Part shown: one piece after another, positions 10,596 through 16,452 of the stretch
Layout: each line of letters begins with the position of its first letter
How positions within the stretch are numbered: position 1 is the stretch's first letter
NCBI GenBank assembly: GCA_002683195.1
Contig: NYSW01000104.1
Coordinates: 1-31,193, forward strand
DNA from: Phycisphaerae bacterium
Lineage (GTDB): Bacteria > Planctomycetota > Phycisphaerae > Phycisphaerales > SM1A02
Reading direction: 5' to 3'
Length of the DNA stretch: 31,193 nucleotides
The notes under the pieces: model-generated
What the model was told of the DNA's origin: nothing
Seen by the model: only the letters and a program-made list of their open reading frames with translations
Databases searched by the model: none
Position numbers and translations under genes: made by a program

Positions 10596-12989
10596 ATGCC
10601 GCGTCGATCAACCGTCATCGTCACGGTCCTCTCTCTTCTCACGGTCGCACCCGGAGCAGCGATGACCACTTGGGAACCCCCCGTGCCGGGCGAAGCGCCC
10701 GGCAAAGGGAACCGACTCCAGTTCGAGTCGAGTCCCTACCTTCTCCAGCACGCCTACAACCCGGTCGACTGGTGGCCATGGTCGCCGGAGGCGATCGCCG
10801 AAGCCCGTCGCCGGGATGTGCCGATCTTCGTCTCGATCGGTTACTCGACCTGCTATTGGTGCCACGTCATGGAACGGGAGAGTTTCGAGGACCCGGCGAT
10901 CGCCGAGATCCTGAATCGAGACTTCGTCGCGATCAAGGTCGATCGGGAGCAACGCCCCGACGTCGACGACATCTACATGACGGCCTGTCAGGTCTACACC
11001 CGGATGACCGAAGGTCGGGCATCCGGCGGATGGCCGTTGAATGCCTTCCTCGATCCGGAGACGCTGGCTCCGTTCGTGGTCGGTACCTATTACCCACCGA
11101 AGGCGATGACGGGTCGTCCCTCGTTCACCGACCTTCTGGGCGGCATTTCACGAGCCTGGTCGGAGCAGCGACCGGAGATCGAAGCCCAGGGGGCGAGAAT
11201 CGCGTCCGTGGTTCGGTCCGAACTCGAAGCCGGGGAGGGGCGACAGGACCTGCCCGGAGATCTCGGTGACGCCGCGGTCTCGGCCCTGCTTCGATATCAC
11301 GATGCGACGGAGGGTGGATTCGGTGGCGCGCCGAAGTTCCCCCAGCCGGTCTTCCTCGAGCTCCTCTTCGAACTCGGGTTCGACCGTCCGGAAGTCCAGG
11401 GGGCCATTCGACGCACCCTCGACCGGATGGCCGCCGGAGGCATTCACGATCAGGTCGCCGGTGGGTTTCATCGGTACGCGGTCGACGGGACCTGGACCGT
11501 TCCACACTTCGAGAAGATGCTCTACGACAACGGGCAGCTGGCTTCGATCTACGCGGAGAGCGTGGAACGGACCGGGGATGAGGATCATGCCCGGGTTCTT
11601 CGGGGCATTCTCGAGTACGTGCTTCGTGAGATGACGGAGTCCGACGGAGCCTTTCGTTCCGCCCAGGACGCCGAAGTCGACACCCGGGAAGGTGGCACGC
11701 ACATCTGGCGTCCGGAGGAGATCACCGAGGCCCTCGAGGCCGGCGGGCTCGCGGACGAAATCACCTTCGCGCTCGAGGTCTACGGACTCGATCGCGGACC
11801 CAACTTCCGTGATCCGCACCATCCCGGTGAACCCCCGGCGAACGTGCTTCGTCTGGAAGATCGATCGGAGGTGGTGGCGGCGGAACTCAAACTCGAACCC
11901 GAAGCCTTCCTGAAGCGATTGAAGTCGGTGAACCAGGTCCTGTTGGAGGCTCGCGATCGGCGGCCGCAGCCTGCGATGGACGACAAGGTGCTGGCGTCCT
12001 GGAACGGACTGATGATTCAAGGCTTCGCCGATGCCGGGCGGGTGCTTCAGGAGCCTCGATACCTCGAGGCCGCCGGCCGCGCCGCGGATGCGGTGCTGGC
12101 CCGGCTCGGTGGGATCGATGACCTCCGTCGAACCGCGCGGGGCGAGATTCGTGGCGGCCCCGCATTCCTCGACGATCACGCGATGCTCGCCGACGGCCTC
12201 CTGGCCATTCATGCGGCGACCGGTGACGAGCGGCGACTCGAGCAGGCTCGAGCCATCGTCGCCGCGGCCCGGAGGCATTTTCGAGATGCCGACCGCGGCC
12301 TGTGGTTCGACACGCGTCCCGACCAGGCGGATCTCCTGGTTCGGGCATGCAACATCAATGACGGGGCCACGCCCAGTGGTGCGGGCACCATGATGCTCGT
12401 GTTGGCGGCGCTTGCGGAAAGAACCGGTGACCCGTCTCATCTCGACGATCTCGAAGCGTTTCTGGCCGCGACCAGCGTCTCATTGGCCGAGAACCCGGTC
12501 GGCCCCATTCGGGCGGTGCTCGCCCGTCGAAGGCTGGGGGAACTCGATCCCGAGCGATCGGCGCGACTGGCTCGACTTTCCACCGATGCGGCCGTGGGGC
12601 AGGTGGCGGTGGCGGACGACGACGGCGTCCAGGTGGAAGTCCTGATCGATTCCCCGGAAGACGGCCGATGCCGGCTGCGGCTCACGCTTCGAGAGGGCTG
12701 GCACGTCAATGCGCACGATCCCGGAGAGGGGGAGGTCGCCTCGGGAATGATCGGCCTCACGCTCGATGTGGTCTCCGGTGGAACGGTCGAGGTCGATTGG
12801 CCGGCGGGTGATCCGTGGAAGGACGGGGTGCTGGTTCACTTCGACACGATCGAGATTCCCTTGCGGGTGGTTCGAGATTCGCCGGAAGAGACCGTCGTGG
12901 TTCAAATCGGCTGGCAGGCCTGTGACGATCGAGTCTGCTTCCGCCCTCGTCGCGCAGACATCGCCATCAAGCCGGAGACGACCCCGTGA
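10596..12989 (+). CDS. Exported SPATA20/YyaL-like thioredoxin protein with a DsbD-alpha-like C-terminal domain
   Basis: The 797-residue product begins with a signal peptide (residues 1-22). The DUF255 thioredoxin domain follows (about 38-170) with the family hallmark [18 protein letters not shown] and active site CYWC (C86, C89). An (alpha/alpha)6-type region (about 220-620) contains [24 protein letters not shown] and [13 protein letters not shown], all typical of SPATA20/YyaL. From about 667 to the end is a beta-rich domain ending in [12 protein letters not shown] (C776, C781), which resembles the N-terminal domain of DsbD. Known relatives lack a settled reaction. The downstream asparaginase overlaps by GTGA, so the two are co-translated. 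Confidence 0.9.
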
Positions 12990-13528
12990 GCCGAGGCCGA
13001 CGCATCGCCCTGATCACCACTGGGGGCACGATCGAAAAGACCTACGACGAACTCGGTGGAGTGCTCAGCAATCGGGTCAGCAACCTTGACGTGATGCTCT
13101 CCCAGCTCGAAATCGGCGGGGTCGATCTGTCGCGGGTCGGTCTCATGAACAAGGACAGCCTTGATCTGACTGAAGCCGATCTTGAATTGATCATCACCAC
13201 GGTCGCCCACTACGTCCGTGATCATGACGGCGTGATCCTGGTTCACGGGACCGATCGGCTCGCGGAGACGGGCCAGCTCCTCCACGCCCGGCTTTCCAGT
13301 CTCCAGGTCCCGGTGGTCATGACCGGAGCCATGCGTCCGTACGAACTTCGTCATACCGACGCGACTCAGAACCTCACCGAAGCCATGCTGGCGGTGCAGT
13401 TCCTCGATCCGGGGGTCTGGTGCGTGATGCACAATCGAGCCCTTCGATTCCCGGAAGTGATCAAGGACCGATCCCGAATGACTTTCGTCACGCCGGCGGA
13501 ACTCGCCGATTCCCGGCAGGATGCCTGA
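12986..13528 (+). CDS. Single-domain L-asparaginase-like protein (GTG start)
   Basis: The 180-residue product matches only the N-terminal domain of two-domain L-asparaginases. Catalytic residues of that domain are present: the [10 protein letters not shown] segment (nucleophile Thr and Tyr), the NKDS serine, HGTD (Thr-Asp pair) and the Lys of [17 protein letters not shown] is also kept. The C-terminal domain, which completes the active site across the dimer in classical enzymes, is absent, and the stop is followed by an ordinary intergenic region, so this is not an obvious frameshift. Short stand-alone members exist in other bacteria. The GTG start overlaps the upstream stop (GTGA). Asparagine hydrolysis is plausible but not assured. 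Confidence 0.85.
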
Positions 13529-13656
13529 ACGGCGGACCGCCGCGGTCCTGATTTTGAATCATCAGGCCCGCTCATTCCCGGGAACCGGGCACCGCTGGAG
13601 GTCGGGAAGACTTCGGATCGGGCCTCGAGACATCCGCGTTCGGGCAGGGACGGCGA

Positions 13657-13662
13657 TATAGT
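13657..13662 (+). promoter_or_regulatory. -10 box of the POT transporter gene
   Basis: TATAGT lies 29 bases before the ATG at 13692, and AGGAG (13677-13681) lies 10 bases before it. This gene therefore seems to have a short leader with a ribosome binding site, in contrast to the leaderless starts nearby. No -35 match is seen at 17 bases. Confidence 0.4.
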
Positions 13663-13691
13663 CGCGGTCTACCTCCAGGAGAGCCGAACCG

Positions 13692-15734
13692 ATGTCCACC
13701 TTCATGACAGCCCCGGTACCCACCAAGAAGATGCCGGGCGGCATCCCCTACATCATCGGCAACGAAGCCGCGGAGCGATTCAGCTTCTACGGGATGAAAG
13801 GCATTCTCGTCGTCTTCATGACGAGTTTCATGTTCCTGATGCCCGGCGGTGCCGCGGAGGGAATGTCGGACACCGAGGCGATCGCCTACTACCACCTGTT
13901 CACCACGGCGGTCTACTTCACGCCGATCCTCGGCGCGTTGTTGAGCGACATTCTGCTCGGCAAGTACCTGACGATCATGATTCTCAGCATCGTGTACTGC
14001 GCCGGCCACGGCGCATTGGCATTGATGGGGACCGGGGGGGGAATCGATCCGGGTTGGATGCTCTTTCTCGGGCTCGGTCTGATCGCGTTCGGTTCCGGTG
14101 GCATCAAACCCTGCGTGTCGGCCCACGTGGGTGACCAGTTCGGTTCGACCAATGCCCACCTGTTGAGCAAGATCTTCGCGTGGTTCTACTTCTCGATCAA
14201 CGTCGGCGCGTTCCTGTCGACGCTGCTGACGCCGTGGTTCCTCGAGTGGTACGGCCCGCACCTGGCGTTCGGAGTTCCGGGCGTGTTGATGTGCATCGCG
14301 ACGTTCCTCTTCTGGTGCGGTCGCAAGCGGTTCGTTCACGTCCCCGCGGGTGGGATGACGTGGTTTCGAGAGACCTTCAGCTGGCAGGGGCTCAGCGCCA
14401 TCCTCAAGCTGGGCGTGATCTACATCTTCGTCGCGGTGTTCTGGGCGTTGTTCGACCAGACGGGATCGTCCTGGGTTCTCCAGGCGGAGGACCTCGATCG
14501 TGAGTGGCTCGGCGTCACCTGGCTGCCCTCCCAGATTCAGGCCGTCAATCCGATCATGATTCTGATTCTGATCCCGGTGTTCACCTATCTGGTGTACCCG
14601 CTGATCAACCGGGTCTTCCCCCTCAATCCGATCCGCAAGATTTCGCTCGGACTTTTCGTGATGGTCAGCGGGTTTTCGCTGGTCGCCCTCGCCCAGGCCG
14701 GCATCGATGCCGGTCAACGACCGAGCATCGGCTGGCAGGTGGCCGCGTATGCGTTGCTCACCGCCTCCGAGGTCATGGTCTCGATCACCTGCCTCGAGTT
14801 CTCCTACACCCAGGCACCGCGGACCATGAAGTCGGTCATCATGGCGCTGTTCCTCATGAGCGTCTCCCTGGGGAATTTCTTCACCGCGGGGGTCAACGGG
14901 TTCATCCAGGTTGAATCCAACGCCGCCCCCGTCAAGGATGTCGCCGCTGCGATCGCGATGCCCGCGGACGACGAAACGGTCGCCGATCCGACGGTCCTCG
15001 CGGGCGAGGCCGGATTCGGCCACGAGTCGCTTCCGCTCGAAGGTTTCGCGTTGTCGATGGCGGGCATCGACGGAGTGCTCGGATCCGAGGACGACATCAA
15101 GCTCGGTTTCGCGGCGGACGGCACCATGACCGGTTTCGTCCAGGACGAGGCGGACGCCCTCAACCAGGGCATCGATCGAGTGGGGCGATTCTGGGACGAC
15201 AACGACCGGCTGCCGAACAACGAGGAAGGCCTCGGCCTTCTCGCCGGTCTCGTCGACCCCTGGGGCCAGCAGATCCGCTACGGCATCCGCACTGGAAGCA
15301 GCTTCGATGTCACCAGTGACGGCCCCGATCGCACCTGGCAGAGTGAATACGACATTCGAGCCGAGGTGACGGTGACCTCGCAGACCACGGCGCAGCAGGC
15401 GCGGGCTCTGGCAGCGGAGGGCGACTCCGATTTCTTTGCCTGGGCTCATCCCGAGACGAGTTGGCGGGAACGACGGATGGCGGAAATGGAAGCCGCCGCC
15501 CCGACCAGCGATGCCGGCGGGACCGCCGAGGATGTGACCGGCTTCGACCGGTCGATTCGCTGGGACGTGGGTGGCGCCAATCTTCTCCAGGGTGCCGGCT
15601 ACTTCTGGTTCTTCACCTACTTGATGCTCGGAACGGCGATTCTCTTCGTTCCGGTCGGCTTCCTCTACCGACCTCGAACCTACCTCCAGATGGAAGAGGA
15701 TTCCGAGTCGCAGCCCGAGGGCGCGGCGGGCTGA
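13692..15734 (+). CDS. POT-family peptide transporter with a GspG-like domain inserted before the last helix
   Basis: The 680-residue product is a proton-coupled oligopeptide transporter (POT/PTR2, MFS). Motifs: ExxERFxFY at about residues 25-34, GALLSDILLGKYLTI near 75 and FYFSINVGA near 160. Family members usually have about 450-550 residues. Here about 220 residues (about 408-628) are inserted between the helix GNFFTAGVNGFI and the last helix (about 633-660). The insert holds a DGVLGSEDDIKLG loop and then EEGLGLL ... D522-P-W-G ... FDVTSDGPDRTW ... YDI, the signature order of the major pseudopilin GspG C-terminal domain. The insert would face the periplasm if topology is normal. It is followed after 4 bases by a NUDIX gene. 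Confidence 0.9.
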   Translation: MSTFMTAPVPTKKMPGGIPYIIGNEAAERFSFYGMKGILVVFMTSFMFLMPGGAAEGMSDTEAIAYYHLFTTAVYFTPILGALLSDILLGKYLTIMILSIVYCAGHGALALMGTGGGIDPGWMLFLGLGLIAFGSGGIKPCVSAHVGDQFGSTNAHLLSKIFAWFYFSINVGAFLSTLLTPWFLEWYGPHLAFGVPGVLMCIATFLFWCGRKRFVHVPAGGMTWFRETFSWQGLSAILKLGVIYIFVAVFWALFDQTGSSWVLQAEDLDREWLGVTWLPSQIQAVNPIMILILIPVFTYLVYPLINRVFPLNPIRKISLGLFVMVSGFSLVALAQAGIDAGQRPSIGWQVAAYALLTASEVMVSITCLEFSYTQAPRTMKSVIMALFLMSVSLGNFFTAGVNGFIQVESNAAPVKDVAAAIAMPADDETVADPTVLAGEAGFGHESLPLEGFALSMAGIDGVLGSEDDIKLGFAADGTMTGFVQDEADALNQGIDRVGRFWDDNDRLPNNEEGLGLLAGLVDPWGQQIRYGIRTGSSFDVTSDGPDRTWQSEYDIRAEVTVTSQTTAQQARALAAEGDSDFFAWAHPETSWRERRMAEMEAAAPTSDAGGTAEDVTGFDRSIRWDVGGANLLQGAGYFWFFTYLMLGTAILFVPVGFLYRPRTYLQMEEDSESQPEGAAG

Positions 15735-15738
15735 TCGG

Positions 15739-16452
15739 ATGCCCGCGGAGCATGGACGTCTGATCCGACTCCGTCGGCCGCCGGTTCTGAACGTCATCCC
15801 CGACCGTTGGGTGCCGGAGGGCGTCGACCTTGATGAGGTCGACGCCCTCTGGCGCACGCTGGTTGAATCGAATCCTCGATATCACGATGGCGATCTGTTT
15901 CACGTCCTCGGGGTGATCCGCAACGGCCATGCGGGCGCGACCATCCATCTCGTGCCTTCGAGTTATCGATTTCACGCGGTCCGGCGATTGGGATTCGACA
16001 CCGGGGTTCGTCCTCTCGGCGTCAAGGGGCTCTTCGTGGCGAACGATCCGGGGAATGGCGAGCGGGGGCTGGTGGCGGGGCGGCGAAGCGAGTCGAGCGG
16101 GTCGTATCCCGGTTGCTGGGAATACCTTCCTGGTGGTGGGGTGGAGCCCGAGTTCGTCGCCGGCCGTCAGCAAGCGGATCCGCTGGCGGTGATTCGCCGC
16201 GAACTGTTGGAAGAGACCGGGGTTCGAGGATCGGTCGATCCGATCGCGTTGGCGATTCTCGAAGATCGATCGGTGGGCACCTGGGAGATCGTGTACCGCG
16301 GGGTGCTCGACTCCTCGCCGCTCGCGCCGCCGGGTTGGGAACACGACTTGATTCGAACGGTGACGCCGGGGACGCTCCCTTCACCGGCGAGTGACGCGGC
16401 GACCATGCTCGCGGGGCTGGCCCGTGATGTCCTGCGTTCGCCCCCGGTCTGA
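15739..16452 (+). CDS. NUDIX hydrolase
   Basis: The 237-residue product hydrolyses some nucleoside-diphosphate-linked compound, not identifiable from sequence. The NUDIX box is present at about residues 132-164: GGGVEPE, a spacer of about 16 residues with an unusual insertion of some eight, then RRELLEETGV, which supplies the metal-binding glutamates. An N-terminal region of about 85 residues precedes the domain and has no recognised family. The ATG comes 4 bases after the stop of the transporter and has no Shine-Dalgarno site, which suggests translation by reinitiation and a shared mRNA. Confidence 0.85.
   Translation: MPAEHGRLIRLRRPPVLNVIPDRWVPEGVDLDEVDALWRTLVESNPRYHDGDLFHVLGVIRNGHAGATIHLVPSSYRFHAVRRLGFDTGVRPLGVKGLFVANDPGNGERGLVAGRRSESSGSYPGCWEYLPGGGVEPEFVAGRQQADPLAVIRRELLEETGVRGSVDPIALAILEDRSVGTWEIVYRGVLDSSPLAPPGWEHDLIRTVTPGTLPSPASDAATMLAGLARDVLRSPPV

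Follow-up and report, generated by a model that had tools for sequence, protein, structure and literature searches.

The POT-family transporter encoded at 13692..15734 on the + strand of the window (the whole 31,193-nucleotide stretch of DNA from a Phycisphaerae bacterium that was analysed here) carries, between its last two membrane helices, a periplasmic domain homologous to the head of GspG, the major pseudopilin of the type II secretion system (T2SS). The parts are already known; what appears to be new is their combination, for which we found no description. It was not encountered in the accessible text of the open-licence PMC literature, in agreement with the original prediction, whose author knew of no described role for it. 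We are highly confident of the anatomy and homology of the insert as described below. On balance, we favour as the best overall explanation a POT in which a GspG-derived head has replaced the TM11-TM12 loop and acts as a docking platform.

The 680-residue product matches the proton/peptide symporter family PF00854 at 7.6e-79 in a Pfam profile search (265.8 bits, cut-off 27). The best 120 homologues listed are 659–718 residues long and align over 96–100% of the window protein, and the closest of those with a named organism, at 77% identity, are MAGs of Phycisphaerales. Modelled at full length (mean pLDDT 84.8), the protein has twelve membrane helices. The N-terminal six-helix bundle, TM1-TM6, is predicted at residues 18–209 (13743..14318, +) and TM7-TM11 of the C-terminal bundle at residues 231–405 (14382..14906, +), with TM11 at residues 377–405; TM12 follows at residues 634–658 (15591..15665, +) and contains the conserved stretches YFWFF and TAILF. 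E25, E28, R29, F30 and Y33 are invariant columns in an alignment of 50 sequences, and we take E25-x-x-E28-R29-F30 in TM1 to be the POT motif (ExxER). Both the 12-TM MFS fold of solved POTs and ExxER in TM1 are therefore present. Against about 85 residues in PepTSo, the window protein has 12 at the equivalent place; its interbundle linker thus leaves no room for the two additional helices (HA/HB) that PepTSo-type bacterial POTs have. Unlike PepTSo, PepT1 and PepT2 (PF00854), the window protein has a GspG-derived domain in its TM11-TM12 loop; apart from this insert, it is, judged by its sequence, an ordinary 12-TM POT peptide/proton symporter. As the N and C termini of POTs are generally both cytoplasmic, the TM11-TM12 loop is periplasmic, the orientation that had been predicted for the domain. 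Antisense to the gene runs a 761-aa open frame (13572-15857, −), rich in arginine and histidine, which looks like a GC-rich shadow frame rather than a gene. Directly upstream of the transporter is a 180-aa asparaginase-like ORF (12986-13528, +) that consists of the N-terminal domain alone, its PF00710 match ending at profile position 161 of 193.

The insert occupies residues 408–631 (14913..15584, +; about 220 residues), as delimited from insert-free relatives and from a model of the domain alone (pLDDT 88.3), so that a POT, identified as such by PF00854 and the model, is indeed interrupted by some 220 residues between its last two helices, as had been claimed. From N402 to Y637 the window protein has 236 residues; among the best 120 matches of an insert-free relative, the equivalent stretch has 10–19 residues in 118 and a few more in one, and is missing from the remaining one, a fragment. 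Within the insert, residues 484–561 (15141..15374, +) make up a GspG-like head core of helix, LPxxEEG, DPWG, tyrosine strand and calcium loop. This likeness to GspG/PulG/EpsG (PF08334, TIGR01710) runs from the second half of helix 1 of the head to the calcium loop, and includes DPWG, the tyrosine strand and the loop ligand positions of 3G20.

T2SSG was matched by 28 of 56 inserts in Pfam (E up to 1) and gspG by 21 of 56 in NCBIfam (E up to 0.1); these are family-level matches, and the window insert sequence by itself scores under the Pfam cut-off for T2SSG. A profile-profile alignment of the insert with GspG spans 68 columns, with the helix, LP..EEG and DPWG, and scores 78.1, while 200 shuffles reach at most 20.6. 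For this, the GspG profile was built from 8 of 13 loci (L086 and L090-L093 were left out, L093 being the POT itself). In a fold comparison of the domain model using VIA-align, rows 1–6 are all GspG; Foldseek with the domain model gave no confident match. Two profile libraries (at family level), the profile-profile alignment, genome searches and the fold comparison agree that the insert is homologous to the GspG head. The originally predicted GspG-like domain before the last helix was thus upheld by profile, by structure and by a survey of POTs, and neither a lack of T2SSG similarity nor an assembly error was found. There are also differences from GspG: in the profile-profile alignment, GspG heads have some 15–20 more residues than the insert between the EEG helix and DPWG, and the insert has an extra calcium loop upstream and a W-R helix downstream. 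The latter, W591-R595...E598 (residues 591–602; 15462..15497, +), is a conserved predicted helix C-terminal to the GspG-aligned region and a candidate contact site, with W591 kept in 198 of 199 inserts and R595 in 180 of 199. Inserts of 14 representatives are 24–52% identical to that of the window, and a search for standalone relatives of the insert gave, among the matches listed at E up to 0.01, three fragments of the same POT and nothing else.

Considering that the ligand positions are kept in 198 of 199 inserts, the insert very probably binds calcium. In 3G20, D117, T122 and D125 of GspG bind the ion through their side chains, and P114 and V119 through the main chain (available text of PMC3396595). 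The C-terminal loop of the window insert, GPDRTWQSEYD (residues 544–554; 15321..15353, +), corresponds to GspG 115–125 of 3G20, and D117, T122 and D125 align with D546, S551 and D554, its predicted ligands. The triplet D-[STN]-D is found here in all but one insert (that of L006), with S or T in 197. The calcium claim of the original prediction is therefore strengthened at the level of ligand positions, and binding itself stays a prediction. A second, PERCAL-like loop of calcium type, GIDGVLGSEDD (residues 458–468; 15063..15095, +), lies upstream, with D460, S465 and D468 as predicted ligands; 127 of the 199 inserts have D-[STN]-D at these positions. It had been listed as an additional DGVLGSEDD loop; the loop is present and, rather than a mere extra, is on sequence comparison a second copy of the GspG-type calcium loop. 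The first third of the insert scores 31.9 against the GspG profile, to whose calcium loop it aligns (none of 150 shuffles above 14.6), and 30.2 against the remainder of the insert (no shuffle above 15.1). PERCAL is the calcium motif of bacterial animal-type haem peroxidases (PMC3396595, available text), and its strict consensus, G-x-D-G-x-x-[GN]-[TN]-x-D-D, is present in 34 of the 199 inserts and absent from all 121 transporter cores examined. Neither window loop is strict, the first having S for T/N and the second deviating at four positions (R, Q, S, Y), but the ligand positions are the same.

The insert, 210–262 aa long, is present in 120/120 of the best homologues listed and whole in 77 of 80 genome loci. 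Because both sets were taken from the top of the match lists for the window protein, the sharing of the insert is partly an effect of selection. Of the three remaining loci, L077 and L079 stop before the insert or within it, and L011 is frame-broken within it; L077 and L079 were left out of the 199 inserts and L011 was kept up to the frame break, and all three were left out of both trees described below. In L011, from a Neomarinimicrobiota record (genome G007), the break is at about 5241. Most insert-bearing loci are labelled Planctomycetota or Verrucomicrobiota. Single records are labelled Bacillota (L003), Neomarinimicrobiota (L011) and Bradymonadia (P0109), and these may be misbinned or transferred. 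Among evenly drawn genomes, an insert-bearing POT was found in 10/199 Planctomycetota, 2/194 Verrucomicrobiota and 1/100 Neomarinimicrobiota; these phyla were reached through the known carriers G001, G003 and G007, which are counted within, and without them the numbers are 9/198, 1/193 and 0/99. POTs of any kind were found in 47/199 Planctomycetota and 44/194 Verrucomicrobiota genomes. The proposed survey of POTs thus yielded both an insert conserved in these two phyla and relatives that do not have it. Four insert-free POTs from Planctomycetota (L168, L173, L175, L176) are 54–60% identical in the core and have 1–4 residues in the columns of 413–629; Gimesia is among the Planctomycetota with an insert-free POT.

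In a FastTree core tree of 129 rows (95 with and 34 without the insert), the insert-bearing rows form one clade, with weak support (0.546) for its separation from L173. In an IQ-TREE core tree of 52 rows, hand-picked from these 129, the insert trait changes once (support 68/98); this result was obtained in 72% of 200 bootstrap trees, and a shuffled trait changed 17 times on average. If the tree is rooted on distant insert-free POTs, the simplest reading would be a single gain of the insert on the line to this clade, and a gain followed by loss in L173 would also be compatible with the trees.

Heads of this kind are found in other proteins as well. Thirteen Planctomycetota proteins (L090, L124-L127, L130, L131, L210-L213, L215 and L216) have a T2SSG domain and no prepilin signal by eye and look like genuine proteins other than pilins; all seven of those scanned in Pfam are above the T2SSG cut-off. 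They include a HEAT protein with three GspG heads (L124), a TPR protein (L131), a TraB-like protein with a head inside it (L090, whose TraB match is under its cut-off), L211, in which the head occurs four times, and a lipoprotein-like protein (L216). L210 is long and has a hydrophobic stretch in its N-terminal part, with one copy by Pfam and more by eye; L213 and L215 are long proteins of the same kind. Further apparent T2SSG fusions (seven loci, L128, L129 and L214) were rejected, being ordinary pseudopilins with GC-rich read-through upstream.

Domains are also found in another loop of POTs. Four insert-free POTs among the best 120 matches of an insert-free relative (P0235, P0240, P0168, P0189) have 178–234 residues in the TM9-TM10 loop. 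Two of these stretches match F5/8 type C, a discoidin-like domain (PF00754), above the Pfam cut-off (2.7e-9 and 3.3e-8); of the other two, one is under the Pfam cut-off for F5/8 type C and one is without a match. The F5/8 type C domains are in the same loop as the extracellular domain of mammalian PepT1/PepT2, which has about 200 residues. This mammalian domain, between TM9 and TM10, comprises two immunoglobulin-like domains and binds trypsin (PMC4597091, available text). Like it, the window insert is a folded domain set into a POT loop that faces outward and belongs to the C-terminal bundle; unlike it, the insert is in TM11-TM12, and its best fold rows are GspG rather than immunoglobulin-like.

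We propose that the periplasmic TM11-TM12 loop of an ordinary POT was replaced, probably in one gain on this line, by a GspG-derived head. Ca2+ probably binds at the C-terminal loop and in most members also at the N-terminal loop and, once bound, would clamp both, keeping the domain folded in the periplasm. The domain may stand outside transport itself, as a docking or capture platform on the C-terminal bundle near the substrate entrance. Its likeliest partner would be a periplasmic peptidase or other envelope protein, possibly contacted through the W591 helix and the GspG face, and its action would parallel that of the mammalian PepT1/PepT2 extracellular domain, with another fold in another loop. 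Different folds have been added to the outer face of the same POT half, a pattern that favours an accessory platform over participation in secretion or in the cycle of transport. For docking as such, we see close to an even chance.

Several other explanations were considered. A likeness confined to a short calcium-loop motif, with no homology to GspG, could appeal to the looser G-x-D-G-x5-D-D, which is also present in unrelated proteins (available text of PMC3396595), and to the sub-threshold Pfam score of the single window sequence. This is very improbable given the helix, LP..EEG and DPWG within the 68 aligned columns, and the shuffles and fold rank rule out a chance motif. Nothing was found in favour of two genes being joined by an assembly or annotation error, which we rule out considering that the same architecture recurs in the best homologues and genome loci counted above. 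A polymerising pseudopilin was also rejected. GspG polymerisation needs a cleaved prepilin signal, of the form GFTLxE, and a hydrophobic helix; a GFTLxE-type N-terminus is seen in L082 and L083. The insert, which sits between two membrane helices, has neither: a hydrophobicity scan of residues 401–635 gave no peak, and no class III signal precedes the GspG-like core, which begins some 80 residues beyond TM11. The insert thus derives from GspG but is not itself a pseudopilin. These same absences weigh against a domain that joins or docks on the T2SS pseudopilus by head-head contacts, coupling peptide uptake to secretion, which we consider improbable even though the insert is a GspG head and T2SSG is matched in each of the ten Planctomycetota genomes that carry it, with a best E of 5.1e-10 or lower. 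Of the 189 Planctomycetota genomes that lack the insert, 175 have such matches too, and the co-occurrence is uninformative because 185/199 have them overall; the Neomarinimicrobiota genome G007, which may be incomplete, carries the insert but gave no match to T2SSG up to E 0.01. A GspG gene would be expected among gsp genes, whereas no T2SS family was found among the 20 window ORFs scanned in Pfam (12 with a family, all of housekeeping type, and 8 without any). ORFs within 7 kb were also clustered across 40 loci, made up of the window and 39 genome loci out of the 80. In the 14 largest clusters, inspected by eye and some of them antisense shadow frames, no T2SS link was seen; the largest, presumably TatD-like, covers 9 of 40 loci. 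The suggested link to an extracellular assembly is thus not borne out, with no polymerising helix, no T2SS family among the ORFs scanned and T2SSG about as common in Planctomycetota genomes without the insert as with it.

A passive calcium-stiffened cap or spacer, which would stabilise the transporter or shield its periplasmic face without any specific partner, is unlikely but deserves more weight. The sequence drifts fast outside the ligand and core positions, and unrelated proteins carry GspG heads, which would suit a fold that is stable and generic; however, the retention of W591 and R595 outside the GspG-aligned region goes beyond a spacer's need, unless these residues only pack against the domain. 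It is less likely still that Ca2+ occupancy shifts TM11/TM12 and so tunes or gates uptake in response to external calcium or salinity. The insert does lie directly between two helices of the C-terminal bundle, and the C-terminal loop ligands are almost invariant, but the affinities given for a PERCAL peptide and the PepA domain (12–79 uM; available text of PMC3396595) suggest that the calcium of sea water and of most fresh water would fill such sites, and PepT2 transport does not need its inserted domain (PMC4597091, available text).

A domain inserted within an MFS transporter is described as unusual, and a study of its in vivo role is called for, in the available text of PMC4597091. What such a domain does can be tested directly by deletion and transplant in this family, which has members with and without the domain, split at one branch. 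The head of a secretion-filament subunit has been reused in other proteins, and for this reason a PF08334 match alone can mislead when Planctomycetota proteins are named GspG. More speculatively, and with a rather low probability, the GspG head could be a portable calcium-clamped envelope recruitment module in Planctomycetota and their kin, freed from the secretion filament and put into transporters and into TraB-like, HEAT, TPR and other exported proteins, which in the POT would gather peptidases or peptide-bearing partners. If this were true, the insert would be an independent bacterial counterpart of the protease-docking domain of PepT1/2.
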